From: a virus
DNA length: 64,000 nt
Direction: 5' to 3' (one strand)
Virus record (IMG/VR): IMGVR_UViG_3300038468_000170
Location: 1 to 64,000 of that record
Below, one piece after another: positions 1 to 50,335 of this stretch. Below the pieces are notes generated by a model. It saw only the letters and a list, made by a program, of their open reading frames with translations, searched no databases and was not told where the DNA came from. Position numbers and translations under genes: made by a program. The stretch's first letter is position 1, and each line of letters starts with the position of its first letter.

Positions 1-791
1 TCCGTCTCTACCTCGCCAAGCTCGCGGAGGACGGCTTGAGCGTCTCGACCGTGAACCAGTTCCTCTCCGCCATCGGGGAGGCGCACGAGGCCGAGGGGCA
101 CCTCTCGCCGCGGTTCCACCCCGCCGTCCAGCAAGTCTGGCGCGGCATCCGTCGGACGAAGAAGGTCCGCGCCGTCGGGATGAAGCCGCTCCTCGCCGAG
201 CACATCAAGAAGATGCTCGCGGCAACGCCGGACATGTCAATGCTCAACGCCCGGGACCGCGCGATCGTCGCCTTCGGCTGGGCTTGCGCGATGCGGCGCC
301 ACGAGATCGTGGACACGCACGTCGAGCACGTCACCTTCCACGACAAGGGCTTCACGGTGCTCATCGAGCGCGCGAAGGAGGACCAGGAGGGCAACGGCTT
401 CGAGAAGATGGTGCTCTTCGGGAAAAACGAGGCGACCTGCCCGGTCCGCATCCTGAAGCGCTGGCTCGCCGTCTCGCGCATCACGACGGGTCCCATCTTC
501 CGACCGGTGAACCGCTGGGGCCGCGTCGTCCAGTACGGCGAGCAGGAGCGCCTCTGGCCGCAATACGTCGAGAAAGTCGTGAAGCGCCTGATGACGAACG
601 CGGGCATCGACCACAAGGGCTACGGCGCGCACTCGCTCCGCGCCGGGTTCATCACCCAGGCCGCGCTCAACGGACACACCGAGAGCGAAATCATGCGGCA
701 CTCGGGCCACTCGAACACCAAGATCGTGCAGCGGTACATCCGCATCGCGAACCTCGACAAGAAGAACGCCACGGAGGACATGGGCTTGTGA
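1..791 (+). CDS. Tyrosine recombinase (integrase), 5' end cut by window edge
   Basis: The frame is open from base 3, so the gene begins outside the window; the first in-window candidate start (TTG at 36) is probably internal. What remains is the end of the helical core-binding domain and a full catalytic domain. The family's catalytic residues are visible: Arg in AMRRHEI, a Lys region near ERAKEDQ, His-x-x-Arg in HSLRAGF, His in MRHSGHSN and the nucleophile Tyr in VQRYIR. Family role: site-specific integration or excision, or dimer resolution. The stop overlaps the GTG start of the next gene. A second, unrelated-looking recombinase is encoded at 51996-53087, so I cannot tell which one is the phage integrase. 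Confidence 0.9.
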   Translation, partial: RLYLAKLAEDGLSVSTVNQFLSAIGEAHEAEGHLSPRFHPAVQQVWRGIRRTKKVRAVGMKPLLAEHIKKMLAATPDMSMLNARDRAIVAFGWACAMRRHEIVDTHVEHVTFHDKGFTVLIERAKEDQEGNGFEKMVLFGKNEATCPVRILKRWLAVSRITTGPIFRPVNRWGRVVQYGEQERLWPQYVEKVVKRLMTNAGIDHKGYGAHSLRAGFITQAALNGHTESEIMRHSGHSNTKIVQRYIRIANLDKKNATEDMGL

Positions 792-5959: not shown

Positions 5960-6682
5960 ATGCGCAGCACGTTCATCTTGGCTCTGATGTTGGTCGGTTG
6001 CAGTGGGCAGCCGTTCACTGCTTCGATGATTGGCTCCGTGTCCGACGGCGGCGATCAGGTCGAGACCGATGGCTCGGGCGGATCTGCTTCGACAGAGACG
6101 GGCGGTGCTGCTGAGAGTGGCGGGCGCGCCGGCACCGGCGGACACGTTGGCGTCGGCTCGGGCGGCCATTTCGAGACCGGTGGGAGCTCGTCGACTGGAG
6201 GGCGAAGCACTACCGGAGGATCAACGTCGACCGGAGGCGTGAACAGTTCATCAGGCGGCTCAAGTGGCGCGACTGGATCCACGGGAGGTTCGTTTGCTAC
6301 AGGCGGCGCCTCGAGCTCGACCGGTGGCACCCCGAGTGATGCATGCGTGCTTGTTACGCACGACAACGGTATCGGACAGACGTGGCAGGACTGCGTGCCA
6401 CTCGACACCTACAACGCGACGCAGGCAACCGCAGCGTGCGAAGCGTACAAGGCGGCTCACGTGGCATCGTGTTCTAGTGCGCGATGCGTGCTCGCCCTCG
6501 GTTCGTGTATCAGCATCGGCAGTAACAGTGTCGAATACACTGCTGACTGCGGAGGCGGCGCCATTCTCTGGACCTACGCGCCAGGAACAGCAAACCCGAC
6601 CGGGGGCGGCCATGTCGTGAACATAACTACCGCCAGTAGTCCCGATGGCTGTCCGACGTCACAAGATCCGTCATGGGATTGA
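5960..6682 (+). CDS. Secreted lipoprotein with TGG-rich linker
   Basis: 240 aa. Signal peptide MRSTFILALMLVGC with lipobox LVGC, so the mature protein should start at Cys14 and be lipid-anchored. Residues ~35-125 are low complexity, built of TGG, SGG and STGG units. The last ~110 residues form a Cys-rich domain with about six Cys (ACVLVTHD, QDCVPLD, SCSSARCVLALGSC). The linker style is frequent in myxobacterial surface lipoproteins, so the gene may be host-derived. Carried by a phage it could alter the lysogen's surface, for example by blocking superinfection; that is speculation. Confidence 0.8.
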   Translation: MRSTFILALMLVGCSGQPFTASMIGSVSDGGDQVETDGSGGSASTETGGAAESGGRAGTGGHVGVGSGGHFETGGSSSTGGRSTTGGSTSTGGVNSSSGGSSGATGSTGGSFATGGASSSTGGTPSDACVLVTHDNGIGQTWQDCVPLDTYNATQATAACEAYKAAHVASCSSARCVLALGSCISIGSNSVEYTADCGGGAILWTYAPGTANPTGGGHVVNITTASSPDGCPTSQDPSWD

Positions 6683-10496: not shown

Positions 10497-11284
10497 GGGA
10501 GCGGGGGCTCTTGGCGCCGCGGATGGTAATAGACAACGAGCGCCCCGCCGACGAGCACGACAGCGACGGCCGCAGCGATACCGATCCACTGAAGCGTCTC
10601 TTTGGGAGGAGTGATGGCGCCCCAGTCCGGAGGAGCCGGAGGCGTCACCTTTCCCCAATATTTGACCGGGTCGGTGCCAGGCGGAAGCCACGTCGGTAGC
10701 CCTTTCAAATTCGAGGGCCAAAGAGTGTCTTGGTAGACGACGAATAGGTTATCCGTGTAGTACGAAGCTCCTCCGGGAAGAACCGAAACACTCGTTTGCA
10801 CGACAGTGTTCTTGACCGTTTTCGTGTTGCTCTGAACCCACGCATCGAACCCTTCTCCGGTTTGGGTGATGTTGGAGTACGTGTACGTGCCCGGATGCAG
10901 CGTCACTCCGTTTGGGGCTGACTCGATGGGGCCGGAAGGTTTGATGACCGCGATGGGGGTCGTGCCGTAGTTCTTCGCCGGAGCGGCAAAGAGTGCTGCG
11001 CGCCCTCCTGTCGCGACGTAGTTCCGAAGCGCTTCCTTTTCGTCGTCGCTCCCTCCGAAGAAGTCGATGTAGTGTTGCTTTTGCTCAGGTGTTGTAGAAG
11101 TGTCATCCAGTGCGGCTGCCGCTTCGTCGAACGAGTTCTGTTCGTCCCCGTGCGAGTTGTACCAGGCGACCCACGTAACGGCGGGACCTGAAAGCCCAAG
11201 CCTGATGACGCGACGACCGTTGAGATAGATCCCCTCGGGACGGATGACGGGGCACCCTCCGAGAAACACCGTTTCGTTCATCAT
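10487..11284 (-). CDS. Membrane-anchored protein, 265 aa
   Basis: ATG at 11284 overlapping the stop of the upstream gene (ATGA); the longer frame to 11380 lies inside that gene. The N-terminal ectodomain is beta-rich (MNETVFLGGCPVIRPEGIY, LNGRRVIRLG, VTWVAWYNSHG). A single transmembrane helix lies near residues 232-252 (WIGIAAAVAVVLVGGALVVY), followed by HPRRQEPP. Last of three coupled membrane-protein genes; its 3' end overlaps the + gene 10116-10496 by ten bases. No family recognised. Confidence 0.75.
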   Translation of the reverse strand: MMNETVFLGGCPVIRPEGIYLNGRRVIRLGLSGPAVTWVAWYNSHGDEQNSFDEAAAALDDTSTTPEQKQHYIDFFGGSDDEKEALRNYVATGGRAALFAAPAKNYGTTPIAVIKPSGPIESAPNGVTLHPGTYTYSNITQTGEGFDAWVQSNTKTVKNTVVQTSVSVLPGGASYYTDNLFVVYQDTLWPSNLKGLPTWLPPGTDPVKYWGKVTPPAPPDWGAITPPKETLQWIGIAAAVAVVLVGGALVVYYHPRRQEPPLPYG

Positions 11285-11481
11285 CGTCGTCGCTTCTTCC
11301 CGCGAACCTTTTTCGCGACCTCTTCGATGACCCATCCGGTCGCTGCACCCATGGCGCTCGTAGCGAGTGCGAAAAGCCAAGGTGACGTCGCCGTGGCGGC
11401 CATAGTAGTCGGGGCCATGAGCGCCTGTCCGAAGCCGACGGCCGGTTTACCTCCTGGCGCGACGGGGGGATCGTAGGTCAT
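11281..11481 (-). CDS. Small membrane protein with basic tail, 66 aa
   Basis: A Pro/Gly-rich start (TYDPPVAPGGKPAVG), one hydrophobic stretch (PWLFALATSAMGAATGWVI) and a C-terminal KKVRGKKRRR. The TM-plus-basic-tail pattern recurs throughout the putative virion genes. Overlaps both neighbours by ATGA. Confidence 0.75.
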   Translation of the reverse strand: MTYDPPVAPGGKPAVGFGQALMAPTTMAATATSPWLFALATSAMGAATGWVIEEVAKKVRGKKRRR

Positions 11482-11906
11482 GCGGCCTTCTTACGCCCTT
11501 TCAAGGTTGCGATTGTGGCGATGGTTCCGACCGCGAGGCTCACCGCCGTTAGCACACCCACAGCCTTACCGATCCCGTCCGAAGGCGGAGTGACCGTCCC
11601 GGCTGCCGGCGCGGTCCCGCTCGGTAGGAAGATCGCGGCTGCTTTGAAACAGCCTTGCACGAGGTTCCCTGTCGCATCGCGGCCCCAAGAGTGCGGCTCG
11701 ACGCGGATAAGCGTCGTAACTCCCGGAAGCGGATAGCTTTCGGTCGTGCCGAGCGGCACCGCCGTGTCGGCAGCGATGGCCTGTGCTCGCGTCGCCAAAG
11801 CATCCGGGATCGGACCGTTCGCGTCCGTCCACGGCTGCCAGCCGTCGGGCGGCGGCACACGCGGGCATTTCGCCGCGAGCTCTGGTCCAACGCCGAACTC
11901 GGCCAT
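11478..11906 (-). CDS. Membrane-anchored protein, 142 aa
   Basis: First gene of the minus-strand trio. The ectodomain (~105 aa) has two Cys and a Pro-rich region around VPPPDGWQPW. One C-terminal membrane helix (GVLTAVSLAVGTIATIATL) is followed by KGRKKAA. Starts about 85 bp from the divergent gene at 11992, with an operator-like inverted repeat between. Confidence 0.75.
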   Translation of the reverse strand: MAEFGVGPELAAKCPRVPPPDGWQPWTDANGPIPDALATRAQAIAADTAVPLGTTESYPLPGVTTLIRVEPHSWGRDATGNLVQGCFKAAAIFLPSGTAPAAGTVTPPSDGIGKAVGVLTAVSLAVGTIATIATLKGRKKAA

Positions 11907-11920
11907 CTCGAGTAGAGTCT

Positions 11921-11965
11921 ACGTGTGACGCCTTGACACGTCTAGCCGCACGGGGGCAGTATACC
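11921..11965 (+). promoter_or_regulatory. Candidate operator/promoter in divergent region
   Basis: Perfect inverted repeat ACGTGT-N9-ACACGT (11921-11941) that overlaps a TTGACA box (11933-11938). TATACC lies 21 bp downstream, wider than the usual 17-bp spacing, so the promoter call is weak; the inverted repeat is clear. It lies between divergent operons starting at 11906 (-) and 11992 (+). Confidence 0.35.
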
Positions 11966-11991
11966 GATCGGACAACGATGGTGCACCGAGC

Positions 11992-12201
11992 GTGAAACCG
12001 TTACCGCCGAAAACGAAGCACGTAGGCGTCAAATTCACCCCTGATCAGTACCAACTGATCTCCGAACGCGCCCAGTTTTGCGGTGTGCCGGTGAGCGCCT
12101 GGATTCGATTCATCTCGCTCCAAGTCGCAAAACAGCAACCAGGGAAAGCCGGCTCGCAACGACAACTTCGCATTCGAGAGCCGAACGGAGCGATCACATG
12201 A
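11992..12201 (+). CDS. Ribbon-helix-helix-like protein, 69 aa
   Basis: GTG start. KHVGVKFTPDQYQLISERA followed by GVPVSAWIRFISLQVA has the strand-helix-helix spacing of RHH DNA-binding proteins such as MobC-type relaxosome factors and small repressors. The tail is basic. Its position next to an inverted-repeat operator suggests autoregulation; that is inference. The stop overlaps the ATG at 12198. Confidence 0.65.
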   Translation: MKPLPPKTKHVGVKFTPDQYQLISERAQFCGVPVSAWIRFISLQVAKQQPGKAGSQRQLRIREPNGAIT

Positions 12202-12752
12202 GCGCAAACACCAATCCTCGTGAGATGATGGGACTCGAGATCCCCGGTGATCGACGAGTACCGATCTCGGTGCGCGATTGGAACGCGATGCGGCTCGCTC
12301 TCTGGAGGAGTAGCGTCGGATGGGGGATCGTGATGCAACAGGCAGTAGCGATCCTCGACGACTGTCTTCACGATCCTTCGTGCCCTGGCGCGAGCAGCGA
12401 AACCGAGCTGTGCCTACCGAATTGCGAGGATCGCGAGAAGCGGATGAGCGCCCTTGTTATTCTGAACGCCGCGAGACAGTTTGCTCCGGTCGACGCCCGC
12501 AGAGCTGCGGACGATCAATACTTCGCGCCGAGCCGCGAGTATTTCAGTGAGGTGCTCTCGTCACTCGCGGCAGCACAGGCCGAGAACGAAATTTTGCGAG
12601 AAGCGCTTCGTCGTGCGGGCATCGAAGCGCCGACTCCGCCCCCGAACGAGACTCCGGCGGTGCCGCCACGCTTGGGCCCATCGAAGCGAGAGCTCGCGGC
12701 CTTTGCGGAGAATCTCGATACAGAAGAGGAAGAAGATGAAGCTCGAACCTAG
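12198..12752 (+). CDS. Hypothetical protein, 184 aa
   Basis: ATGA overlap with the RHH gene. N-terminal domain with HDPSCPGASSE and CLPNCEDREKRM Cys pairs. A middle helix (EVLSSLAAAQAENEILREAL) looks coiled-coil, followed by a Pro-rich stretch (PTPPPNETPAVPPR) and an acidic tail (LDTEEEEDE). No family recognised. Overlaps the start of the GroES-like gene. Confidence 0.7.
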   Translation: MSANTNPREMMGLEIPGDRRVPISVRDWNAMRLALWRSSVGWGIVMQQAVAILDDCLHDPSCPGASSETELCLPNCEDREKRMSALVILNAARQFAPVDARRAADDQYFAPSREYFSEVLSSLAAAQAENEILREALRRAGIEAPTPPPNETPAVPPRLGPSKRELAAFAENLDTEEEEDEART

Positions 12753-13113
12753 GAACAACCAAATCATCGGTCGGATCGTCATCAGGCGCGCGTTCTCGTC
12801 GATCGTTCGCCCCGACCAGACGAAGGACATCACCAAGTTCATTTTGGTCGATGCGGTCGGTAGCGGCGCCGCAGCCAAAGGTGTCAAGATCGGCGACGTC
12901 ATCGTTCCAATGGCGATCGGGAAAATCATGCTGGACGACGGATTCCGACCGTCCCTCGAAGAGGAGAACGTCGGATTTTTCGTTCGGGACGTGAGCCCGA
13001 GCGATCTCCTGATCCAGACGGACAACGGCCTCGAGTACGTCCCCTTCGACTCCGAGAAGGCGGCGAAGTCGCTCGGCGCGGTCGTGAAGGAAGCCGAATC
13101 CGAGGCGGCATGA
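12736..13113 (+). CDS. GroES-like (Cpn10-fold) protein
   Basis: 125 aa, ATG at 12736 after GAAGAGGAAG. The order of strands resembles a co-chaperonin: KLEPRNNQIIGRIVI, VDAVGSGAAAKGVKIGDVIV, MAIGKIMLDDGF and EENVGFFVRDVSPSDLLI. GroES-fold proteins cap chaperonin; some phages encode their own to fold the coat protein. The match is structural-pattern level, not strong sequence identity, so another beta-barrel is possible. Confidence 0.6.
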   Translation: MKLEPRNNQIIGRIVIRRAFSSIVRPDQTKDITKFILVDAVGSGAAAKGVKIGDVIVPMAIGKIMLDDGFRPSLEEENVGFFVRDVSPSDLLIQTDNGLEYVPFDSEKAAKSLGAVVKEAESEAA

Positions 13114-13697
13114 TGTTCGCGCGCGCTCTCCGACGTCCTCCATGCGCGTGCCCCCGCGGCGTGCGCGAAACGCCCCTGCGTCGCCCCCGAGGCGTCGAGC
13201 CGGTAGAGCTGGTCGGCGCTTCGAGCGGTGCCAGGTGCCGGCCATTTCTCGTGGTGCGAAAGGACCCGGAGCGGTTCGCGGCCTGCAACGAACTCGCCGA
13301 TCGCATAGGACCCCTCAACGATCCGAAGAAGGTCATCCGCTTGCTCGAGGAAGCCATCGGCGACGAGCTGAACGAGGTTTTCGGCGTGCTGACGGTGGAC
13401 ATCCACGGCCGCATGAAGGGGATGACGGAGACCGGTCGGGGGGAAGCGTCAAGCGTGATGGCACCGATGATACCGACCATCCGAGCCGCGCTGTTCAGCG
13501 GCGGCGAGGGAGCCATCCTCTGGCACGTGCATCCGTCGGGAGTCGTGGCCGAGCCCAGCAAGGCCGACAAGGACACAACGAAGGCGTTCGCGGATGCGTT
13601 CGAAACCATCGGCATGCCTCTCATAGACCACATCATCGTCGCAGGCGACGCGCGAAGGCGCAGCTATTTCAGCTTTGCGAAAGAGGGGTTGCTATAG
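13110..13697 (+). CDS. RadC-like JAMM/MPN metalloprotease-fold protein
   Basis: 195 aa, overlaps the GroES-like gene. The C-terminal half is the RadC/JAB domain: EVFGVLTVDIHGRM, then the metal-binding H139-V-H141-P-S-G, with S150 and D153 completing the JAMM signature (EPSKAD). The N-terminal ~45 residues are Arg- and Pro-rich and unlike RadC's usual helix-hairpin-helix, so it may be a JAMM peptidase or deubiquitinase-like enzyme rather than a DNA-repair protein. Substrate unknown. Confidence 0.8.
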   Translation: MMFARALRRPPCACPRGVRETPLRRPRGVEPVELVGASSGARCRPFLVVRKDPERFAACNELADRIGPLNDPKKVIRLLEEAIGDELNEVFGVLTVDIHGRMKGMTETGRGEASSVMAPMIPTIRAALFSGGEGAILWHVHPSGVVAEPSKADKDTTKAFADAFETIGMPLIDHIIVAGDARRRSYFSFAKEGLL

Positions 13698-16652: not shown

Positions 16653-17810
16653 ATGCGAACGTACGTCGTTCAGCCCGGAGACACACCGGCCGGCATCGCT
16701 GCTCGTCCGGACATGGCGGGCTGTCCAAAATGTTCGATTGACATCATAAAATCGAATCCTCACAAGCCGACCGTAGTTCACCCGAATGGCTTCGTTACCT
16801 TCCAAGATCTGCGCGAAGGCGAGAAACTCAATCTTCCCGACAAGTGGTTCGACGGCTCCCTCGACGATCGCCCTCGCGCGTACTTCGCGGCACTCCCCTA
16901 TCACGACGGCGTGACTCCGTCGACGCTCGGAGACCTCGCCTCAGGAGTGCTCGGTGACTATGCGTCACTCGATGCCGCCTCCGCGCAAATCGGAGCTCTC
17001 TCCGCGATGGGGGCACAAGAGTTCAGCGACAACGTGGGCGCTACGTGTGACCTCCTCGAAGCGTCAGTGCGAGAAGCGTACGGAAACACGAGTAAGCCAG
17101 CGGCAGCGGGGCCCGCCCAGGACGTGCATGCCTCGACGTATTGGGTTCGACAGCGAAACCAAGACTTGAAGGCCGCAATCGCCGCCGGGGACGGCTCGGA
17201 CTATCAGGTGCGGCAGAGCATCCTCCAAGTTCTTTCTTCGGGGCTCGGTAGCGCAAGGCTCGCGCTGAAAGAGTTCTATGGAAGCACGCCCACGCCCGCG
17301 ACAGGAGGCGCCTTCCCGGAGACCGTAACGACCGCGGCGCAGGCGGTCGCTTCCGCCATCGCAGCAGATCCGAACTACTGCACGTCGGTCGCGCATCCTG
17401 GGAGCCCCGTCAATTCGGCGGTGCACGTGTTCAAAACGGCATGGAACGCCTCCGAGAGCCCTAAAGTGCCGATCGGCACCAGCAGCTACGAGCAGGAAAC
17501 CGCTGGCGCGCTCGCGCGCGTGCTCGGCACCGCTCCCTCGGCGTGCGCGGCTCGCGTACCTACTTTGCCGTCTTCACCTCCAATCGGTCCGTCGCAACCG
17601 ATCATCGTGCCTCCGGAGGAAAAAGGACTGAGCTTCGGTACCGTTCTCGGTCTTGGGTTGCTCGGGGCCGGTGCAGTAGGTGGTGCGATCTATCTCGCCA
17701 CGAAACAGGAACCGATCCGAGCGCGTCGCGTGCGTCGAGTGAGGCCAGTTCGAAGGCGTCGACCCGATCCGACGTTTTATTACAACCCCGACGATGGAGA
17801 GCTTCCGTGA
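16653..17810 (+). CDS. LysM-type, membrane-anchored putative virion protein
   Basis: 385 aa. The N-terminus (MRTYVVQPGDTPAGIAARPD, continuing to ~65 with EGEKLNLPDKW) is a LysM-like glycan-binding module with a Cys pair. The middle is helical. Residues ~230-300 hold a two-Cys domain (PNYCTSVAHPGSPVN, VFKTAWNASE, VPIGTSSYE) that is repeated in the protein at 24170. The C-terminus has a Pro linker, EEKGLSFGTVLGLG, a membrane helix and an Arg-rich tail (RARRVRRVRPVRRRR). Likely anchored in a membrane with the peptidoglycan-binding part outside. Confidence 0.8.
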   Translation: MRTYVVQPGDTPAGIAARPDMAGCPKCSIDIIKSNPHKPTVVHPNGFVTFQDLREGEKLNLPDKWFDGSLDDRPRAYFAALPYHDGVTPSTLGDLASGVLGDYASLDAASAQIGALSAMGAQEFSDNVGATCDLLEASVREAYGNTSKPAAAGPAQDVHASTYWVRQRNQDLKAAIAAGDGSDYQVRQSILQVLSSGLGSARLALKEFYGSTPTPATGGAFPETVTTAAQAVASAIAADPNYCTSVAHPGSPVNSAVHVFKTAWNASESPKVPIGTSSYEQETAGALARVLGTAPSACAARVPTLPSSPPIGPSQPIIVPPEEKGLSFGTVLGLGLLGAGAVGGAIYLATKQEPIRARRVRRVRPVRRRRPDPTFYYNPDDGELP

Positions 17811-18466
17811 TCGAAAAGCCAGTAGCCGGCGTACAGACGGACACGCGCCCGCACCCCGCAGGTAAAAAGGGAGCCCGACTGTCACTGAAAGAGGTCGCGG
17901 AGCGTGCATGGAAAGCACGGATGAGTCCGCGCCTTCGCGCATGGGTCACGCAACGCCTTGCCGATGCCGGAGTATCGACCGGTGGCCGCCGCCAAAAAGC
18001 GGAAGCGATCCTCGAAGCCTTCCGAAAGAAGGTACCGTACGTCGCCGATCCTTTGATGGGCGAGTTCATGGAAACGCCGGATCAGACGCTCTGCCTCGAT
18101 GAAGGCGGACTTTGTTTCATTGGTACGGATTGCGATGGCGCATCCATTACGCTTGCCGCTGCGGTCATGTCGATCGGCATTCCAGCTATGATCATCGGCA
18201 GCTCCCATAAGGAGCCGTACGATTTGCCGACGCATGTGTTCATGGCGTTCGAAGACGACATGAACGATTGGGTGAAAATGGACGGCACGACGAAGTTGCC
18301 CGTCGGTCGTGTTCCTCCGCATGCGCGTGAGTGGTGGGTCGAGCCCGGCGCCAAAGCGAAAGAGCTCGGTGAGGGCGACTTCGTCGGCATGAGCGGCGCG
18401 GAGCAATCGGGAGCGCTCGAGGGGCCTCCAAGCGTGCTCGATTTTCTCTATCCGACGATCCGGTAG
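17807..18466 (+). CDS. Transglutaminase-like cysteine peptidase
   Basis: 219 aa, GTG overlapping the previous gene. The transglutaminase core is clear: Cys109 in IGTDCDGASITLAAAVM, His143 in LPTHVFMAFEDD and Asp159 in WVKMDGT form the C-H-D triad. The N-terminal ~75 residues are basic and helical. Family members are peptidases, amidases or crosslinkers. Next to LysM and capsid-type genes, a maturation protease or virion crosslinking enzyme are both plausible. Confidence 0.85.
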   Translation: MIEKPVAGVQTDTRPHPAGKKGARLSLKEVAERAWKARMSPRLRAWVTQRLADAGVSTGGRRQKAEAILEAFRKKVPYVADPLMGEFMETPDQTLCLDEGGLCFIGTDCDGASITLAAAVMSIGIPAMIIGSSHKEPYDLPTHVFMAFEDDMNDWVKMDGTTKLPVGRVPPHAREWWVEPGAKAKELGEGDFVGMSGAEQSGALEGPPSVLDFLYPTIR

Positions 18467-18496: not shown

Positions 18497-18718
18497 TTAC
18501 TGCGTCTCATCGCTGGCGTCTTGATTGCCGATCTGGCGCGGTAAGCGCGCAACGACCGAGTCGCGTAAACAGGCGATTCGGTTTCGATTTTTGATGTCGC
18601 AAATCGTGACGAACAGGGGCTCCCGGCAAAACCTAATCACGCTCTCTGTTCTGTCTAGTTGCGCTTCGTCTTGACCGAACAAAATCACGCTGAAAGCCTG
18701 TTGTCCGAACCGTGACAT
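18497..18718 (-). CDS. Possible small protein, 73 aa (weak)
   Basis: Only reading frame in the 250-bp gap between 18466 and 18717. Product mixes strands and Arg-rich loops (FSVILFGQDEAQLDRTESVI). Its start is complementary to the ATG at 18717, and an AAAGG lies upstream. No family and no coupling; it may be chance. Confidence 0.25.
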   Translation of the reverse strand: MSRFGQQAFSVILFGQDEAQLDRTESVIRFCREPLFVTICDIKNRNRIACLRDSVVARLPRQIGNQDASDETQ

Positions 18719-20444
18719 GGGCGGCCTTTACGACGATCGGCTGGCAGATCTCAGCGAACCTCGACGCACTCGTCGATTCGCCGGGCGCCCCGATCCGCGT
18801 CGTTCCCCAATCGAACGCCCGTATCCGGCGCCTCGCCGGCCCGTCGCGCCGACGCCTCCTCGAAGCGTCGCTCGAGAGGCGAAGCGCCCGCCGATGTCCG
18901 TGCAGTCGCTCCTCTTCAGTCGCGACGCCTGGACGACGAGCAAAGCCAAGGCGTGGGCGAAGTCTCACGGCTACCGGTACGGGAAGGTGGACGTCACCGA
19001 CCAGTACATTCGCATCCGTCAATTCGACCCGAAGGGTCTCAAAATCAAACGGACCATCACGCTCGGCCGGGGCATCCGCGCCGTAGTCGCAAGGGAAGAC
19101 AAACGAATGGCAAAAGCAACCGAAGCCCGTCGACGCCGCCGTCCCAGCAAGAAGACCGCCGCACGCAAGCGCCCCCGCAGGAAGCGCGCTCGTGAGGCAG
19201 TGGCGGAGACGCGAAGACGTCCTCGTCGCAAGCGTCGGGCAGCGCGTGCGGAAGCACCGCGGCGTCGACGTCGTGCCGCTCCCATGGTGATGGAGACGAA
19301 GCATCGGCGGCGTCGTCCGCGGCGTCGGGTCGCGCGCGAGGCATGGCGCGGCAATCGTGGCGGTCACGCGACCGCAGCAAAGAAAGGCTGGCGTCGGCGG
19401 AGGCGTGCAGCGGGGAGCGCGCCGCCTCGTAGGCGTCGGCGTCGGGTGCGTGAGGCGGTCGTGGCGGAGACACGCCGACATCGGCGCACTCGTCGGCGCA
19501 GCCGTCGGACGCGCGAAAGCACGTACGCGACGGAGACGAGGCGTCATCGTCGCGGCCGTCGCCGAACGCACGAAGCGGCGCGTGGCGGCGGCATGGGCCT
19601 CGCCGAGTTCGGCGTCGCGATCCTCTCCGGAGGCGTGGGCTTCATTCTGGCCGATGGTCTCGATCGCTTCCTAGCGACGTACGACCCGGCCGCTGCCGAA
19701 AAGCCGACGGACAAGTTCACGAGCGACGGCGCAGGCACGCTCGCGAACACACTCAACGTCGCATCGCGTCCGGGTCTTCTCCGGCTCGGAGTCGGAGCGG
19801 GCATGGTGATCGCACCGGCGGTCGGCGCGGCGTACACCGACGGGATGTTCCGGAGCTCGCTCGAGGGCATGACTCTCGGCACGGGCATCTCGTTCTTCAA
19901 GACGCTGTGGAACAGCTTCTTGATGCCCCTCCTCATCGGGAAGGACACCAGCGAGCCGACGCTCAAGAAGAGCTTCATTGCGAGGCTCTACCCGAGCGAG
20001 GTCGCGGCCGCGATCAACCTGCAACAGAAGCAGACCGCGGTCTCGAGCAGTGGCTCCGGCGCTCTCTCCGGTGCGCCTGCTCAGACTGGCGTCGGCGCCG
20101 ACGTCGGTCCGTTCGCGCTCGCTGCCGATTCACCGTATCCCGATGCGGCGGCGGCGCTGCGGCAGCAGGCCGGCGTGCAGGACTACCCCACCGTGCAAAA
20201 CACGTGGGGGACCGGCGGACCTGGCAACAACTACCCGACCGCCGCACAGGCGATGGGTACCGGTGCCGATCCGTCGGCGTCGGCCGGCATCCCGTACGAA
20301 CCGGGACCTCCCGCGGGCCCCGGACCTGGACCGCAGGCGAGACCGCACACGGATCCCGCGTGCGGATGCATCGGTGCCACGGACATGTACGCCACCTTCC
20401 TCGGTGACGCCGAGGAGACGGATCTGTCGATCAACCTGAACTGA
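18717..20444 (+). CDS. Very Arg-rich membrane protein, possible DNA-condensing virion protein
   Basis: 575 aa from ATG 18717; ATG 18894 (MSVQSLLFSRDAWTTSKAKA) is a good alternative with GAGAGG upstream. Residues ~60-125 are a small domain (SLLFSRDAWTTSKAKAWAKS, GYRYGKVD, IRIRQFDP) that I recall next to phage head-maturation proteases. Residues ~130-290 are protamine-like, with RRRRR runs interleaved with AREA, AETRR and TATETRRH. Two or three hydrophobic segments follow (GLAEFGVAILSGGVGFILA, LLRLGVGAGMVIAPAVGAAY). The C-terminal third is Gly/Pro/Ala-rich. Likely bridges packaged DNA and a membrane; that is inference. Confidence 0.7.
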   Translation: MGGLYDDRLADLSEPRRTRRFAGRPDPRRSPIERPYPAPRRPVAPTPPRSVAREAKRPPMSVQSLLFSRDAWTTSKAKAWAKSHGYRYGKVDVTDQYIRIRQFDPKGLKIKRTITLGRGIRAVVAREDKRMAKATEARRRRRPSKKTAARKRPRRKRAREAVAETRRRPRRKRRAARAEAPRRRRRAAPMVMETKHRRRRPRRRVAREAWRGNRGGHATAAKKGWRRRRRAAGSAPPRRRRRRVREAVVAETRRHRRTRRRSRRTRESTYATETRRHRRGRRRTHEAARGGGMGLAEFGVAILSGGVGFILADGLDRFLATYDPAAAEKPTDKFTSDGAGTLANTLNVASRPGLLRLGVGAGMVIAPAVGAAYTDGMFRSSLEGMTLGTGISFFKTLWNSFLMPLLIGKDTSEPTLKKSFIARLYPSEVAAAINLQQKQTAVSSSGSGALSGAPAQTGVGADVGPFALAADSPYPDAAAALRQQAGVQDYPTVQNTWGTGGPGNNYPTAAQAMGTGADPSASAGIPYEPGPPAGPGPGPQARPHTDPACGCIGATDMYATFLGDAEETDLSINLN

Positions 20445-20457
20445 TCCGATCCCCAGT

Positions 20458-20537
20458 ACACCTCGCCCCGGTAGGCTTCGAGCCCCGGGGTTGAGGTGTC
20501 GAAGGACTCACCCGCGTCGGCCCAAGAAACGGCGGGT
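20458..20537 (+). promoter_or_regulatory. Two hairpins ahead of the candidate coat-protein gene
   Basis: Hairpin 1: ACACCTC (20458-20464) pairs with GAGGTGT (20493-20499), with inner CCCCGG/CCGGGG also pairing. Hairpin 2: ACCCGC (20510-20515) pairs with GCGGGT (20532-20537) and ends four bases before the GGAG ribosome site of 20551. No T-run follows, so mRNA stabilisation, attenuation or translational control is as likely as termination. Confidence 0.55.
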
Positions 20538-20550
20538 AATGGAGTGAAAA

Positions 20551-21885
20551 ATGGCAAAGAGCAACAGCAGCAGAAGCATCACCGGCAGGAAGATCTACAA
20601 TTTCGAGCGGGAGAAGGGGAAGGTCCAGCGCATGCAGTTCGGCCTCGGCGCAACGCCGGGCGACCTCGGCGCTGCGCAGAAGTGCATCAAGTGCAGCTTC
20701 GGCAACATCCCCGTCATCGAAGAGGTCGTGTGGACGATCCCTCTGCCGCTCACGGCTGAAGAGGCGCTCGCGACTCTCGGAGACACCGTCAATCTGCTCT
20801 CGGGTAGCTCCAGCGTGCCCGGTGTCGCGTCGATCGATTCGACGTTCCTCATCAACGGCATCCTCCAGACGGACATCCTCGCGCAGGGCGTGGGCGTGCA
20901 CATCTTCTGCGAGCCGATGTCGTTCTCTACGATCGGCAACTCCTTCGCGGCTCCGGCGACGACTGAGGTTCCCCCTCCTTCTCCGGACGTGTTCACGGAC
21001 AACGACTTGTTCAACGGAGCGCTTGGCGGTCAGTTCGCTGGTGCCACCCCGACGAGTGACACTCCGCCGACTCCGGCGGTGTTCGAGTTCGGCGCGGCCG
21101 TTTGGCGCGCGGGCTGGAACTTCATCAACGCATACCAGTTCCAGTGGAAGACCTCGCAACGTGAACTCGTGTTGAACGAGCTCGCGTCGGACGTCTCCTA
21201 CTTCGGCTCCTTCGCGGACGCCGAAGCGAGCGGTACGAGCGAGGTGCCCATCATCGAGTTCGTCGCTGCGGTGAACGCGACTTACCGCTCGAAGGGATCG
21301 GCAACGATCTTCCTGCCGGTTTCCTTCCGGCGTGTCGGTTCGGTGAACAGCACGAGCGCGACCAACAACGTCGGTGTTTTCCATCCGACGCGCGACTTCG
21401 ATCTTGCTCCGGTCACCTGGGGCGGCCTCCGGTGGCAGGGCTACGGATGCCGTGGCCAGATGTACCGGCCGATCGAGAGCCCCTGCTTCCTCGAGCGCGG
21501 CATCCCCATCGGCATGCTGTTCACCGTGCAGGACGCCGTTCACCAGGCGCTCATGCTCGAGGCAGTCACGATCAACAACGAGCCTCTCGGCAGCAACATC
21601 TCGCCGGACACGAACTTCTCGTGCGCGTCTCAGGTGGGACCTGCCGCCGGGAACGGAGTTCCGACTGCGGGAGCCATCGCCTCCGGAGCGAACAACGTCA
21701 TGCTGGAGCAGACGCTCGACACGACTCCGGTGCTCGTGCAGCAGTCGGTCAACGTTTGCCGAGAGGTCTTCAAGGGCGGCATCCTGAAGATCGGCATCAA
21801 GATCAAGGGCTGGGAAATGCCCGGAGGCTGGAAGGCGTACTGCGAGACCAACATGCCGCAGCTCATGGGTCCTCGGACGGCCTGA
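20551..21885 (+). CDS. Candidate major coat protein, 444 aa
   Basis: ATG 7 bases after GGAG. Basic, flexible start (AKSNSSRSITGRKIYNFERE), then a long beta-rich body with many Ser/Thr/Gly strands (IEEVVWTIPLPLTAEEAL, VFEFGAAVWRAGWNFINAY, SATIFLPVSFRRVGS, VFKGGILKIGIKIKG). No membrane segment, signal peptide or enzyme motif. The composition and size, a 5' hairpin leader, a downstream terminator-like hairpin and two following beta-rich genes all fit an abundant coat protein. I cannot assign an HK97 or jelly-roll fold from sequence alone. Confidence 0.55.
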   Translation: MAKSNSSRSITGRKIYNFEREKGKVQRMQFGLGATPGDLGAAQKCIKCSFGNIPVIEEVVWTIPLPLTAEEALATLGDTVNLLSGSSSVPGVASIDSTFLINGILQTDILAQGVGVHIFCEPMSFSTIGNSFAAPATTEVPPPSPDVFTDNDLFNGALGGQFAGATPTSDTPPTPAVFEFGAAVWRAGWNFINAYQFQWKTSQRELVLNELASDVSYFGSFADAEASGTSEVPIIEFVAAVNATYRSKGSATIFLPVSFRRVGSVNSTSATNNVGVFHPTRDFDLAPVTWGGLRWQGYGCRGQMYRPIESPCFLERGIPIGMLFTVQDAVHQALMLEAVTINNEPLGSNISPDTNFSCASQVGPAAGNGVPTAGAIASGANNVMLEQTLDTTPVLVQQSVNVCREVFKGGILKIGIKIKGWEMPGGWKAYCETNMPQLMGPRTA

Positions 21886-21915
21886 TCTCCCGCACACCGA
21901 AGAGTTGAAACAGCC

Positions 21916-21958
21916 ACGAGCGGCGCAGGCGAAAAACAGCGCCGCGCCGCTCGTAGCG
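21916..21958 (+). terminator. Terminator-like hairpin after candidate coat gene
   Basis: Perfect 10-bp stem, ACGAGCGGCG (21916-21925) with CGCCGCTCGT (21945-21954), followed by AGCG and TTTT. The T-run is short and offset, so it may be a partial terminator that lowers expression of downstream genes relative to the coat gene. Confidence 0.6.
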
Positions 21959-21979
21959 TTTTAGGGAAGAAGAACGCAC

Positions 21980-22582
21980 ATGCAGCCCAAAACATACGAC
22001 GTCCGCTCGCTCGCTTTGTGGGCCCCGAAGACTGCCTACGGAATGGTAGTCGGCGTTCCGCGCGTGCCGTTCGTCGCGGACATCCCAATCCAGTTCTCCT
22101 CGAGCACTGTGAACGCTCCGCCTGTCGTACAGAACCTCCAGAACAACCTGACGCAGGACACAGTCATCGAGCGCGTCTCCTTCAATCTGTTCCAGCAAAA
22201 CAGCTTCCCCGGATCTCCGTTCCAGAGTCTCTATTTCAACCAACTGAAGCAGAGCGGACAGACCGGAGTCGGCGTGCAGATGGCTGTCTACGGTGGCCCG
22301 AAGTACAATGTGAACGACGTCTTCACCGATCTCGGGAATCTGGCGGACGTGTTCGCAACGACATGGCCAGAGGGGTGGCCACTTCAAAAGCAGAGCAATG
22401 TGAAGATCAGTGCGATCCTCACGCAGACTCCAGTGAGCGTTCCGTTCAACGTCATCATCACCCTACTCGGGTGGCAGTTCCTTTCAAAGGAACTCGACGA
22501 TATGAGCGACACCGAAGCGCGTGACCGGTTGCGCAAGCTCGGCATCGAGACCCCGGACATCAGCATTCTGCTCAAACCGTGA
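21980..22582 (+). CDS. Candidate minor coat/virion protein, 200 aa
   Basis: ATG at 21980 with GGGAAGAAG upstream. Beta-rich (TAYGMVVGVPRVPFVADIPI, VIERVSFNLFQQNSF, TGVGVQMAVYGGPKYNVND, SVPFNVIITLLGWQFLS) and ending in a charged helix (SDTEARDRLRKLGI). The size suits a single beta-barrel. Lies between two other beta-rich genes in one operon. No named family. Confidence 0.6.
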   Translation: MQPKTYDVRSLALWAPKTAYGMVVGVPRVPFVADIPIQFSSSTVNAPPVVQNLQNNLTQDTVIERVSFNLFQQNSFPGSPFQSLYFNQLKQSGQTGVGVQMAVYGGPKYNVNDVFTDLGNLADVFATTWPEGWPLQKQSNVKISAILTQTPVSVPFNVIITLLGWQFLSKELDDMSDTEARDRLRKLGIETPDISILLKP

Positions 22583-22587
22583 AGTGA

Positions 22588-23472
22588 ATGACCTCCCGCT
22601 CCGACAACGTGATCCCTCTCCAGCGCTACCCCGGCGGGGTCGCGCAAGGGATTCGTTCGGTCCTTGCGGGCGGTCGGTACGAGGTCGTCACCAACGGTCC
22701 GAACCCCGAGTTCGGGTTCATCGGAAGCGATCCCTACGACACGAACGCCTACACCGGGCTCGTCGTGCCCTCGACTCCGAGCTCTGCGATCGGGAACGCG
22801 CGCTACCTCTTCCTTCTTGCGCGCGCGAGCTTCAGCACCGGTGAGCAGAGTTCAGACCGTCTCGGTGTGCGTCTCGTCGGCATTCGGCAGTACGCCGAAC
22901 TCGTCGCGCGGATCCCCGCCGGCACGGATCCGCCGCTCAATCGCGAGTTCGGTCCTCCTGAAGGCAGCACGGTCACGTTTCACAAGGAGATCACGAGCCC
23001 GCTCTGGCATCCGCCGGACGGCAACATCTCCTGGCACGTGATGGTGATCAACAAGGTGCAGCGGGACACGAGAAACCCCGCCAACACCGACGGGTTCATC
23101 TACCAAGACTCGCTCTCTCCCGCGCTCCTCTACCAAGTGCCGGCGCCGTACGCGCCTCCGAACGGAGGGCGCCCGTGGGGGACGCCGCTCGCAGCGAGCC
23201 TCGGCAACATCCACGAGCTCCGGTACCACTGGCGCGCCGACAACAGCGAGTACGTTCTCGACATCCCGATACCGGTGCCGTGTGACGTCGCGCTCTTCGC
23301 GAGTGTTCGGCAGAACAACACCGACCTGAACCCAGTCCTCACCGATTGCATGGCATTCGGTGTGCTCTCTCCCGAGGATCAGTTCTTGGTCACGTACAAC
23401 AACTTCGCGCAGTACGGGACGATCGCGGGCGCGCTCGTGTTCGACCAGAACCTTGGGGAGGACGTACCGTGA
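22588..23472 (+). CDS. Candidate virion protein, 294 aa
   Basis: ATG 22588, five bases after the previous stop. Strand-rich throughout (GGRYEVVTNGPNPEFGFIG, SDRLGVRLVGIRQYAELVAR, VTFHKEITSPLWHPPDG, YVLDIPIPVPCDVALFASV). No membrane or catalytic signature. The stop overlaps the GTG of the next gene. With 20551 and 21980 it forms a trio that could be two coat proteins plus a vertex or accessory protein. Confidence 0.6.
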   Translation: MTSRSDNVIPLQRYPGGVAQGIRSVLAGGRYEVVTNGPNPEFGFIGSDPYDTNAYTGLVVPSTPSSAIGNARYLFLLARASFSTGEQSSDRLGVRLVGIRQYAELVARIPAGTDPPLNREFGPPEGSTVTFHKEITSPLWHPPDGNISWHVMVINKVQRDTRNPANTDGFIYQDSLSPALLYQVPAPYAPPNGGRPWGTPLAASLGNIHELRYHWRADNSEYVLDIPIPVPCDVALFASVRQNNTDLNPVLTDCMAFGVLSPEDQFLVTYNNFAQYGTIAGALVFDQNLGEDVP

Positions 23473-24167
23473 CACCCGCGCAAGCCTCAGGTCACCCGGA
23501 CTTCGTCACAGACGTTCCCGTTCAGGGTCCGACCGACGAGGGACTTCGCGCAGCAGACTGCCGCTTCGCTCAAGAACGATTACCGGCGCGCCCGGCGTGC
23601 GTCGATTGCAAAGGACCGATTCCCATGTGGGCACAAAGCAAAGGACTGCTCGGCGAGCACGTTTCGTTCGGAGGTAGAGGCGCCCTCGGCTTCGCTCTGA
23701 ATGCGGCGGGAGATCCCGAAGTCTGGACGAAGCTCTCGGCCGAACAGCAAGCGTGGGTCGTCGCGACGCTCACGACGTTGAACAACCTCATCTACCAGGC
23801 GACCGGTACCACGTGTCCCACCTGGGGACCTGCCATCACGGCCGCGGGCGGGTGCTTTCAGAACTGGTTCAACAAGAACGCGAAGCTCACGAAGCCTGAC
23901 GGATCTCCGCTCGTTCTTCGGACCGACGGCGTCTTCGATCAGGACACGCTGAACGCACTCACCACCATCGCCGCCATGGATCCGGGGCACTTCCAGAAAG
24001 CGTTCCCCCCGGGCGCGATCACTTCGGCAGCTCCGACGGAAGAGAAGAAGATCTCGACCGCAGGAATGGTCGGTATCGCTGCCGCCGTCGCTACGGTCGG
24101 GGGCGGAGTCGTCTACGCCGTCACGCGCGGCGGCAAACGCAAATCTCGTCGCAAGAGCAGGAGCTGA
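23469..24167 (+). CDS. Membrane-anchored, peptidoglycan-binding-like virion protein
   Basis: 232 aa, GTG overlap. N-terminal part with Cys pairs (ADCRFAQE, ACVDCKGPIP), then a helical domain (WTKLSAEQQAWVVATLTTLN) and a motif like PG_binding_1 (LRTDGVFDQDTLNALTTIA). The C-terminal module EEKKISTAGMVGIAAAVATV continues as one membrane helix and ends in GGKRKSRRKSRS. The EKKIS-TM-basic-tail module is shared with 24170 and, loosely, 16653. Confidence 0.75.
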   Translation: MTPAQASGHPDFVTDVPVQGPTDEGLRAADCRFAQERLPARPACVDCKGPIPMWAQSKGLLGEHVSFGGRGALGFALNAAGDPEVWTKLSAEQQAWVVATLTTLNNLIYQATGTTCPTWGPAITAAGGCFQNWFNKNAKLTKPDGSPLVLRTDGVFDQDTLNALTTIAAMDPGHFQKAFPPGAITSAAPTEEKKISTAGMVGIAAAVATVGGGVVYAVTRGGKRKSRRKSRS

Positions 24168-24169
24168 TC

Positions 24170-25519
24170 ATGCAGTACCACCGAGTTCAGTACGGAGAGA
24201 GCCCGACGATGATCGCGCGCCGCTACGGCGTGTCGCTCGACCGGCTCGTTGCCGCGAATCCCCACAAACGCACCAAGATGGTCGCGAGCACTCGGACCTT
24301 CGAAGGGATCCGCCCCAACGAGGTGGTGCACGTGCCGGTCGGAGTTGGAGCCGTCGCTCCTGCCGATCCGAACGCGCCGCACGCGCAGATCAAGCAAGGA
24401 AGTCGCGGAGCCGACGTCGCGCTCTGGCAGACGATCATCGGCGTTACAGCGGACGGCATCTTCGGGCCGAATACCGCTCAGGCAACGAAAGCGTGGCAGA
24501 GCAGGCACGGCGTCGCTGCGGACGGCATCGTCGGTCCGAAGACATGGGCGGCGGCACTCGGCGGCGGAGCTCCGGCGCCTTCCGCGCCTATTTCCGTGAC
24601 TGCTCCGACTCCCGCGCCGTCTTCGGGACTTGCTGCGGCAGCCGCAGCGGCGCTCGCGGCACTCAGCGCTGACTCGAACTACTGCGTGAGCGTCGGTCGC
24701 GTAGGAACTCCGGTCAACACGACCGTCCACAACTTCAAGGCCGCGTGGAACTCTTCGAATCCGGGTAGCCCGGTTCCCATCGGCACCGGCAAATACGAGC
24801 CGGTCGTGGCGAATGCGCTCTCGTCGGCGCTCGGGGGGCAGACTGTTCCTCCGGGATGTGGTGCGGCCCCGGCAGCTCCGCCTCCGCCTGTCGCACCTCC
24901 TCCTCCCGTCGCGCCTCCGCCGGTCACGCCGCCGTCGGTGACGCCCGTCGCGCCGAGCGTCCCCAGTGCCCCCAGCGTGCCGAGCGCTGTGGGCGCGTTG
25001 ACGGTCATCGACCCGTGTGACCAGACGAACGTCAACATCGTCCGCCAGGCGCAAAGTGTCCTCGGCGTCACCGTCGACGGAAAGTACGGTCCGAACACGG
25101 CGGCTGCCGCGAAACGGCTCGTCCCGAGCGCTCCGGCCGCGTGCAGTCCGACTCCGTCGTGGTGGGGAGCGAAGGGCAGCGCACCGACGCCCCCGCCGAC
25201 CGCGCGTCCGCCGATCCCCTCGCCCGCGGCTCCGGTTCCCGCACCGACACCGGCCGCGCCTACCCCAGGAGTTCCCGCACCGGCCGCGCAGGCGCCTGCG
25301 GCCCTTGGTCCCGCACAACCCCCCGTCGTCGTCCCCGCAGAGAAGAAGATCTCGACCGGCGCAATCGTGGCCGGCGCTGTCGGCGCGGTGGCTCTCGTCA
25401 GCCTCGCTGCCGTCGCGATGTCGGGCAAGAAACCGGGGCATCGCGGCGGTCGTCGACCGGCGCACAAAGGTCCCTCGCGTCGCAAGAAGAAGTCCAAGCG
25501 CAGTTCAAGGAAGAGGTAA
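24170..25519 (+). CDS. LysM + PG_binding_1 membrane-anchored virion protein
   Basis: 449 aa. Order: LysM (MQYHRVQYGESPTMIARRYG through VVHVPVG, ~1-58); PG_binding_1 (IKQGSRGADVALWQTIIGVT, GPKTWAAAL, ~70-125); a two-Cys domain shared with 16653 (SNYCVSVGRVGTPVN, FKAAWNS, PIGTGKYE); a Pro/Val linker; a second PGB-like unit (VDGKYGPNTAAAAKRL); more Pro/Ala linker; EKKISTGAIVAGAVGAVAL membrane helix; and a long Lys/Arg tail. The ectodomain should bind peptidoglycan; the tail may contact nucleic acid or coat inside the membrane. Confidence 0.85.
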   Translation: MQYHRVQYGESPTMIARRYGVSLDRLVAANPHKRTKMVASTRTFEGIRPNEVVHVPVGVGAVAPADPNAPHAQIKQGSRGADVALWQTIIGVTADGIFGPNTAQATKAWQSRHGVAADGIVGPKTWAAALGGGAPAPSAPISVTAPTPAPSSGLAAAAAAALAALSADSNYCVSVGRVGTPVNTTVHNFKAAWNSSNPGSPVPIGTGKYEPVVANALSSALGGQTVPPGCGAAPAAPPPPVAPPPPVAPPPVTPPSVTPVAPSVPSAPSVPSAVGALTVIDPCDQTNVNIVRQAQSVLGVTVDGKYGPNTAAAAKRLVPSAPAACSPTPSWWGAKGSAPTPPPTARPPIPSPAAPVPAPTPAAPTPGVPAPAAQAPAALGPAQPPVVVPAEKKISTGAIVAGAVGAVALVSLAAVAMSGKKPGHRGGRRPAHKGPSRRKKKSKRSSRKR

Positions 25520-44345: not shown

Positions 44346-44552
44346 ATGGAGAGAATCTATCTACATGCGCGTCCGGTGCTCGGTTTCTCGCTTGGAGCAG
44401 ATGATTCAAGTCCGATGGATCTGGTGCGTTGCTCCGACGGCAGCGTTCATCGCGCCGGGCAATGCCCGATGAGTACCGGCGCGAAAGTCGCGATCGGCGG
44501 CGGAATTGTCGCCGCAACAAGTCTGGTGATCTGGTTGGTGTCTCGTGGCTGA
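44346..44552 (+). CDS. Small membrane protein, 68 aa
   Basis: N-terminal YLHARPVLGFSLGADDSSP, a Cys pair (VRCSDGSVHRAGQCP) and a C-terminal membrane helix (AIGGGIVAATSLVIWLVSRG). A tail-anchored small protein next to the lysozyme gene. Role unknown. Confidence 0.7.
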   Translation: MERIYLHARPVLGFSLGADDSSPMDLVRCSDGSVHRAGQCPMSTGAKVAIGGGIVAATSLVIWLVSRG

Positions 44553-45159
44553 CCTAGGTGGTTCTTCGAACGCAGCCATTGCGTTCGATTTCCTCGTAAG
44601 CAAGGGACTCAGTTGCGAGCAAGCGGCTGCGGTCGTCGGAAACCTGCAAGTAGAATCCTATCTCAATCCCAAAAACGACGTCCCGGATCCAAAGAAAAAC
44701 GATCCTTCGGCACGCGGACGAGGGATCGCATCTTGGGATCCAACCCGTTGGCAAAACTTGCTTACGTTCGCGGCCGGGAGAGATCCGCTCTCGCTTGGAG
44801 TGCAGCTCGAGTTTTTGTGGCACGAGCTCCCTTCCAACGGACTGGCGCAGCTTGCCTCAACAACTCGCCTGGAAGATGCGGTAGTAGTCTTTCAAAATCT
44901 CTTCGAACGCCCGCGCGTGGCGCACACCGACAAACGCATCGCGGCAGCACAAGCCGCGCTCTATTACTGCCAGACCATCATCGTACCGAAAAAGAGCACC
45001 TCGATCTGGGTCGCAGCAGGCGCACTCGCTCTCGGCGCTCTCGCCGCAATCGGGATCTACAAGGCGAAGAAACGGCCTCCTGCCTACGAAATCGAGCGGT
45101 TCGATCGCTATCCTCCACCAGACCGATGGGAACCCGAACCGGATCGGTGGGAACCGTGA
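44545..45159 (+). CDS. Phage-tail-lysozyme-type muralytic enzyme with membrane anchor
   Basis: 204 aa, GTG 44545. Residues ~8-140 match the phage tail lysozyme family: AAAVVGNLQVESYLNP with the likely catalytic Glu37, then RGIASWDPTRWQNLLTFA and LGVQLEFLWHEL. A membrane helix near 155-172 (IWVAAGALALGALAAIGIY), then KAKKRPP and a Pro/Trp/Glu tail (DRWEPEPDRWEP). Should cut peptidoglycan during entry. Being membrane-anchored is unusual for this family, whose members normally sit in tail structures. Confidence 0.85.
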   Translation: MADLGGSSNAAIAFDFLVSKGLSCEQAAAVVGNLQVESYLNPKNDVPDPKKNDPSARGRGIASWDPTRWQNLLTFAAGRDPLSLGVQLEFLWHELPSNGLAQLASTTRLEDAVVVFQNLFERPRVAHTDKRIAAAQAALYYCQTIIVPKKSTSIWVAAGALALGALAAIGIYKAKKRPPAYEIERFDRYPPPDRWEPEPDRWEP

Positions 45160-49812: not shown

Positions 49813-50335
49813 AAGCGAAACGGCCCGGGATCTCCGAGCCGTTTCAGGGGCGAAGGACTGTCGGGCCCTTCTGCCTCCACCACGCCCCAGGAAAGGGGCG
49901 GTGGAGCCGCCGGGTAGCGAGCCCGGGTCCGCGAGATGTCCAGACGATCTTCGTTCACGTGCCGTAGCCGATGAACGTCACCGGCACCGTTGCTCGCCCC
50001 GTATCGCGGGAGACAAGCGTTCCTCGTGGCCTTCATTACCGATCGGACGACAGCCTAGCGTTATCCCAAGTGGGCGCCTTCGTACGATCCGGGCTCGTGA
50101 GGTTCGTGCCGGCGAGCTACTCGAGCTCCTCGCTCGCCAACAGATCAGGCCGCCACGCGGACGGACGGATCGATTGCGTTGTCGTTCGCAACTGACGTTT
50201 GCCCTCGTGAAGTGAGCGGCATCCCTGGCACGCAGACCTTCCTTTCATTCCCACGTCGAATCAATTCGGCCCCGTAGGTAATTCGAAGCGTAGATCTAGC
50301 GAGTTCGTGATGCAAGTCGCGCGCAAATCCGCAGC
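49813..50335. other. Convergent intergenic region, ~520 bp, no supported gene
   Basis: Lies between the plus-strand left arm and the minus-strand right arm. Open frames here are Arg-rich and lack start signals or family features. Apart from the hairpin at 49817 I see no clear repeat, tRNA or promoter. It is one place where an attachment site could lie, next to the integrase-containing right arm, but nothing in the sequence proves it. Confidence 0.4.
49817..49845 (+). terminator. Hairpin at the end of the left arm
   Basis: GAAACGGC (49817-49824) pairs with GCCGTTTC (49838-49845), 13-nt loop, five bases after the last plus-strand stop. No T-run follows, so it is at best a weak or Rho-assisted terminator. 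Confidence 0.45.

Follow-up and report, generated by a model that had tools for sequence, protein, structure and literature searches.

Three linked genes for candidate shell proteins of a probably tailless virus with a genome of about 100 kb

The DNA analyzed here (the window) comprises bases 1-64000 of the 96,019-base IMG/VR virus record IMGVR_UViG_3300038468_000170 and carries, at positions 20551-23472, three consecutive genes for proteins of 444, 200 and 294 amino acids (aa). In our view the three proteins most probably make up the shell of a bacterial virus that has no tail, probably possesses an internal membrane and carries a genome of about 100 kb, a reading to which we assign a probability of roughly 0.72. 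A preliminary description of this DNA, made from the sequence alone, had proposed them as coat proteins. This proposal gained support, as the genes co-occur in the same order in every locus examined, tailed-phage head genes are missing from the group and the 200-aa protein is modeled as a jelly roll.

20551..21885, + strand: 444-aa protein (A1/A10 family), a candidate for the major coat protein; 33 related loci
21980..22582, + strand: 200-aa protein (A2/A8 family), coat or penton candidate with a predicted single jelly roll; in all loci, with a confident AlphaFold2 model
22588..23472, + strand: 294-aa protein (A3/A9 family) with a predicted beta-sandwich, probably a second coat protein or a vertex protein; in all loci

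Conservation and linkage of the three genes

All three open reading frames (ORFs) are intact, with coding scores of 137.6 (444 aa), 48.1 (200 aa) and 69.5 (294 aa). Compared with a relative, the ratios of nonsynonymous to synonymous substitutions (dN/dS) are about 0.14, 0.16 and 0.22 in the same order, which indicates purifying selection. The three genes thus exist at the positions given before. The proteins were also said to be free of membrane signatures, and this was borne out: the maximal hydropathy over 19 residues is 1.19-1.53, so none of them has a membrane-like segment. Their isoelectric points (pI) are about 5.

Relatives of the 444-aa protein were found on IMG/VR contigs at 33 loci, with 39-89% identity, and a search seeded with the 200-aa family returned only contigs already found in this way. 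The trio-bearing group amounts to about 30 records of up to 127 kb, many of them 60-127 kb long. The 444-aa family was without a match in 50,697 phage records, 72,556 plasmids and the GTDB genome collection, as well as in Pfam, PHROGs, INPHARED and the PDB sequences (single-sequence and profile searches). For the trio as a whole, there was no Pfam or PHROG match and no meaningful match among PDB sequences. The trio is real and well conserved, and none of the sources searched describes it. Profile-profile comparison found the three families unrelated to one another; therefore they are not the product of a recent duplication.

While the trio is present in all loci, DNA polymerase A was found in 10 of 28 records. 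Because the block is fixed and the replication genes are far less constant, we regard the trio as a virion module, in which structural genes would be expected to stay constant while the replication kit next to them varies.

Single relatives show insertions or a duplication among these genes. An HNH homing-type endonuclease ORF is inserted in L005 (11393-11992) and a GIY-YIG homing-type endonuclease ORF in L017 (12025-13074), while an ORF of L033 (12049-13044, - strand) resembles GIY-YIG proteins by eye only. In L022 (about 11270-12590) the 200-aa jelly-roll gene is tandemly duplicated.

Predicted folds

The 200- and 294-aa proteins of relative L003 were folded as one chain because their genes are in frame and only a few bases apart. 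The intervening stop was read as glycine; the joined chain is a folding device, and no fusion is claimed. The model reached a predicted local distance difference test (pLDDT) score of 78.9, with most of both halves at 77-95 and the joining region below 50. Within the 200-aa half, the blocks mostly scored 81-94. Structural comparison with VIA placed residues 4-180 of this half on residues 4-181 of the SPV1 capsid chain 6oj0_A (Z 6.3, root-mean-square deviation 3.7, 139 residues). Similar scores were obtained with HHIV-2 6h82_b (Z 6.1), the STIV turret (Z 6.4), vaccinia D13 and its orf-virus homologue (Z up to 6.8) and the major capsid proteins (MCPs) of PBCV-1 and iridovirus (Z 5.8-6.2). According to the model, the 200-aa family is a single jelly roll.

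The 294-aa half is a confidently modeled, strand-rich beta-sandwich and probably a jelly roll as well, although it was the 200-aa domain that drew most matches of the joined model. When the 294-aa profile was compared with PDB sequences, its best match, enterovirus capsid VP1, was marginal (E 0.038). For the 444-aa family, AlphaFold2 with a 26-row alignment gave a low-confidence model of mixed alpha/beta content (pLDDT 57.7, predicted template modeling score 0.54). Its VIA matches were weak and mostly viral jelly rolls, among them papillomavirus L1 (Z 3.4-4.5) and, again from this weak model, one jelly roll of the STIV MCP (Z 4.6, 138 residues). Foldseek also returned papillomavirus L1, at a probability of 0.01 and a template modeling (TM) score of 0.07-0.1, which is too weak for use alone. 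HK97 capsids were absent from the structural matches, which excludes nothing. A BFVD search of the joined model delivered 10 matches with E <0.001 of mixed functions and low TM score; it was uninterpretable and was dropped.

The preliminary description had called all three proteins beta-rich and of unknown fold, and had named AlphaFold-type models as a check. The first statement holds for the confidently modeled 200- and 294-aa proteins; the model of the 444-aa protein is mixed and of low confidence. The second can be given up for the 200-aa protein, for which the check yielded a jelly roll at fold level, and probably for the 294-aa protein, while it still applies to the poorly modeled 444-aa protein.

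RNA hairpins around the 444-aa gene

The 444-aa gene is bracketed by hairpins.

20458..20499, + strand: second upstream hairpin (ACACCUCGCCCCGGUAGGCUUCGAGCCCCGGGGUUGAGGUGU), core motif conserved
20505..20541, + strand: leader RNA hairpin just 5' of the ribosome-binding site of the 444-aa gene, covariation
21916..21954, + strand: terminator-like hairpin in the gap that separates the 444-aa gene from the 200-aa gene, then TTTT; z -4.05

Two hairpins before the gene and one after it had been described, and all of them were recovered (20458-20499 and 20510-20537 before, 21916-21954 after). The leader hairpin has its stem at 20510-20515/20532-20537 and a conserved loop with CGG-CC-GAAAC. Across 24 sequences its covariation was 0.443, compared with 0.170 +/- 0.024 after shuffling (0/500); 95.8% of cells were paired, 24 double-sided changes were counted and slid controls were far lower. 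A covariance model, with which the complete window genome was scanned too, found one strong copy per main-clade genome (24/24), located only 5' of the 444-aa gene. In the distant clade the motif was not found, and other stems were seen at that place by eye. The window and 10 relatives each carry the core motif of the hairpin at 20458-20499 once, 5' of the 444-aa gene. Judged by folding energy, the whole upstream stretch is unremarkable (z -1.64).

The hairpin at 21916-21954 is stronger than chance (0/200 shuffles), and nearly all of 30 loci have a long stem 3' of the 444-aa gene, with differing arm sequences and usually a T-rich tail. A simple terminator scan did not list 21916-21954 because the loop is too long for the rule of the scan. 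The earlier idea that the hairpins mark a higher expression of the 444-aa gene gained support from the conserved leader and downstream hairpins. They fit a separate control of this gene, which might raise, limit or autoregulate its expression.

Tailed-phage hallmarks and ATPases

In 29 records, neither terminase profile (PF03237 Terminase_6N, PF04466 Terminase_3) matched at E <= 1, and the same was true in 28 records for the profiles of portal (PF04860) and HK97 capsid (PF05065); in both cases extreme divergence is possible. The positive-control genomes matched in these searches. For the A32 and FtsK families nothing was found above the cut-off. The Walker-A proteins of the 96-kb record are confined to a deoxynucleoside monophosphate kinase, a Dda-like helicase, an SNF2-type helicase and one chance-like short match. 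A HerA-like ATPase (Pfam HerA_C, DUF87) is encoded in 8 of 28 relatives, including L095, L096 and L097, and is absent from the record of the window. Consequently, the idea that the whole group lacks a packaging ATPase was dropped. The HerA-like protein is a candidate packaging motor, though not a universal one in these data; the records may be incomplete.

Neighboring genes and other features of the record

The genes listed next are all on the + strand.

16653..17810, + strand: 385-aa protein with LysM-like N terminus and C-terminal transmembrane segment, candidate virion membrane protein
17807..18466, + strand: 219-aa transglutaminase-like protein, a conserved member of the module (Pfam Transglut_core, E 0.0033, below the curated cut-off; 25 loci)
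18717..20444, + strand: 575-aa protamine-like protein, a candidate DNA-condensing virion membrane protein
23469..24167, + strand: 232-aa protein with C-terminal transmembrane segment and basic tail
24170..25519, + strand: 449-aa protein with LysM and peptidoglycan-binding domains and C-terminal transmembrane segment (PG_binding_1 1.4e-14, LysM 1.2e-4; 26 loci)
Starts at 26482, 27701, 29634, 32469, 45622 and 46247, + strand: fibre/spike-like ORFs with a shared N-terminal tag

The trio had been placed between membrane genes, and transmembrane or hydrophobic segments are indeed predicted in neighbors on both sides. That tail-anchored proteins flank the trio is at most compatible with an internal membrane of the Helvetiavirae type. 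Together with the LysM, peptidoglycan-binding, lysozyme and fibre-like genes, the flanking membrane genes provide a supporting context for the shell reading. The lysozyme protein (gene at 44545-45159) carries a C-terminal membrane segment as well, and matches tail-lysozyme families in its enzymatic domain only (residues 9-138).

The 575-aa protein combines a basic N-terminal part (105 arginines and lysines of 292 residues, pI 12) with a hydrophobic C-terminal part. In all loci checked, a protamine-like ORF with a hydrophobic part lies directly 5' of the 444-aa gene, with 59-77 arginines and lysines in its richest 150 aa. The N-terminal tag M..I(I)GRGRxARETYP is common to at least six different fibre/spike-like ORFs of the window, and a tag of the GRxARETYP type also heads ORFs in ten related genomes. 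These proteins may therefore dock at one shared site on the virion, by a motif with a role like that of the fibre tail motif of adenovirus.

The structural block opens with a conserved RadC-like JAB-domain gene (13251-13697); the Pfam RadC match (2.6e-22) was obtained in the protein set and assigned to this ORF by its HxHPSG motif. The conserved ORF at 12736-13113 was considered as GroES, a label dropped for want of Pfam or PHROG support. Antisense within this ORF, ARAGORN called a tRNA-Val (12947-13025, - strand) that is probably spurious. At 49899-50273 (- strand) there is an Rfam match to transfer-messenger RNA with 50.4 bits (gathering threshold 47), for which ARAGORN made no such call.

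Both ends of the record share a 223-base repeat with 97% identity (window 1-223 and record 95795-96017), and an 80% repeat links 878-1314 to 94639-95075 of the record. These repeats point either to a near-complete circular or terminally redundant genome, or to paralogous genes of an integrase region. TGG-repeat lipoprotein-like ORFs lie at 5960-6682 of the window and 91158-93626 of the record. Such glycine-rich TGG lipoproteins, which we take to be reminiscent of Myxococcota, might give a hint toward the host.

Discussion

As known here from genes and models, the virus would work like a tailless jelly-roll phage, and we assign it to no named family. Among known systems, SPV1 (Portogloboviridae) has single-jelly-roll coat proteins (PMC8459092), and almost the whole 200-aa model can be aligned with its chain 6oj0_A. 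By analogy, the nucleoprotein core of SPV1 may be compared with the protamine-like gene of this group. In contrast, SPV1 has an archaeal host and a genome of about 20 kb, whereas this group has about 96-127 kb and a third shell candidate, the 444-aa protein; no SPV1 chain was found by profile search of PDB sequences. A second likeness is to P23-77, HHIV-2 and HCIV-1, which possess adjacent beta-barrel coat genes (small then large in P23-77) and whose known members have an internal membrane. VP16 (173 aa) and VP17 (291 aa) of P23-77 are encoded 10 bp apart, the 200- and 294-aa proteins 6 bp apart. Unlike our record, P23-77 has a 17-kb genome and a packaging ATPase (ORF13) near its coat genes. 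The phages of the survey by Yutin et al. (PM2, PRD1, Odin and FLiP groups) are likewise tailless and jelly-roll based, and the Odin and FLiP groups are without a packaging ATPase (PMC5894146). However, the double-jelly-roll phages of that survey have genomes of 7-18 kb (PMC5894146), and for the group studied here a double jelly roll is at most a possibility. Searches of an open-access library turned up no account of large tailless jelly-roll phages.

How the roles are divided among the three proteins allows more than one answer. It is a serious alternative, somewhat short of even odds, that the 444-aa protein alone forms the shell, while the 200- and 294-aa proteins serve as penton and as spike or vertex, like the single-jelly-roll pentons and spikes of haloarchaeal viruses. 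A leader hairpin of its own precedes the 444-aa gene, the terminator-like hairpin parts it from the next gene, and its conservation is among the highest in the trio. In addition, residue 45 is the first in 6h82_b, in keeping with the HHIV-2 penton VP9, which is described as having a flexible stretch of 40 residues at its start (PMC6414509); HHIV-2 and HCIV-1 have single jelly rolls in both the small coat and the penton (PMC6414509). However, the hexameric coat proteins of SPV1 are single jelly rolls too (PMC8459092); therefore the fold cannot tell coat from penton. We consider it unlikely, but worth weighing, that the virus is P23-77/HHIV-2-like (Helvetiavirae, a group with two vertical single-jelly-roll coat proteins, transferred to the realm Singelaviria in 2025, PMC12451622), with the 200-aa protein as its small coat protein, the 294-aa protein as its large one and the 444-aa protein as accessory or vertex. 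Gene order, sizes, spacing and the single-jelly-roll model of the smaller protein speak for this pair, and the earlier remark that the sizes recall lineages with more than one coat protein is matched to that extent, while a sequence link is missing: hhalign detected no profile similarity between VP16/VP17 and the trio families. Furthermore, two stacked jelly rolls are no more than a candidate fold for the 294-aa protein, no packaging ATPase was found beside the coat genes and conservation of the 444-aa protein is no lower than that of the pair.

Other explanations would take the trio out of the shell altogether. Most IMG/VR contigs of this length (about 100 kb) come from tailed phages, and the lysozyme at 44545-45159 matches tail-lysozyme families; the virus could then be a tailed phage whose HK97 head has diverged extremely, and the trio its tail or decoration proteins. 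Given that no terminase, portal or HK97 capsid profile matched in 28-29 records, that the lysozyme match is confined to the enzymatic domain and that the 200-aa protein is modeled as a jelly roll, we judge this improbable. Very improbable in our estimation is that a plasmid-like element was wrongly classified as viral and that the trio forms an assembly which this element secretes or displays on the surface. Integrases, ParB-like genes and collagen-like and lipoprotein-like genes would suit such an element, but the lysozyme, the fibre set and the virus-type nucleotide metabolism genes do not, and neither the plasmids nor the GTDB genomes searched contained a match.

Several results weigh against three shell proteins of a tailless virus. 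No sequence similarity was found between the trio and any known coat protein, and no packaging ATPase in the window's own 96-kb record. The folds of the 444- and 294-aa proteins are candidates only, as far as models go, and the joined-chain model was built from relative L003, not from the window's own sequences. With this model, Foldseek gave no PDB match at E <= 0.001. The top VIA rows belong to the non-viral enzyme PHM (Z 7.3), whose domains are jelly-roll-like as well, and all VIA Z scores are below 8, so that the structural scores speak at fold level only. With PHM as the highest structural match, the fold class is supported and not descent.

If the shell is nevertheless built by the trio, the following mechanism can be envisioned. 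The 200-aa protein would serve as a single-jelly-roll coat or penton, the 294-aa protein, encoded by the next gene 6 bp on, as a second jelly-roll-type shell or vertex protein, and the 444-aa protein as the likeliest major coat. The shell would assemble on a membrane vesicle bearing the tail-anchored LysM/peptidoglycan-binding proteins, and the DNA would be condensed at this membrane by the protamine-like protein encoded just 5' of the 444-aa gene. By bracketing the 444-aa gene, the leader and terminator-like hairpins may set its output apart from that of the 200- and 294-aa pair, while exchangeable fibres would be docked through their shared N-terminal tag. One might speculate further that the group is a new high-rank lineage: tailless, membrane-containing, of about 100 kb, with three mutually unrelated jelly-roll-type shell proteins, protamine-like condensation rather than a universal motor and a lineage-specific leader RNA that controls coat synthesis. 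In this full form the idea is tentative and rather doubtful.

New in this analysis are the covarying leader hairpin, the terminator-like hairpin in nearly all loci and the universal protamine-like membrane gene. Small genomes (7-18 kb, PMC5894146; 17 kb in P23-77) have been taken as typical of tailless jelly-roll phages. If our reading is true, the genomes of this group would be 5-10 times those of known jelly-roll phages, and the tailless jelly-roll architecture could carry large genomes in bacteria, together with a full DNA-replication kit. The way in which 100 kb are packaged into such a capsid, the need for a packaging ATPase and the control of coat protein levels would then become testable. 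Moreover, the coat trio would be a marker for counting such viruses in metagenomes, where tailed-phage hallmarks miss them.

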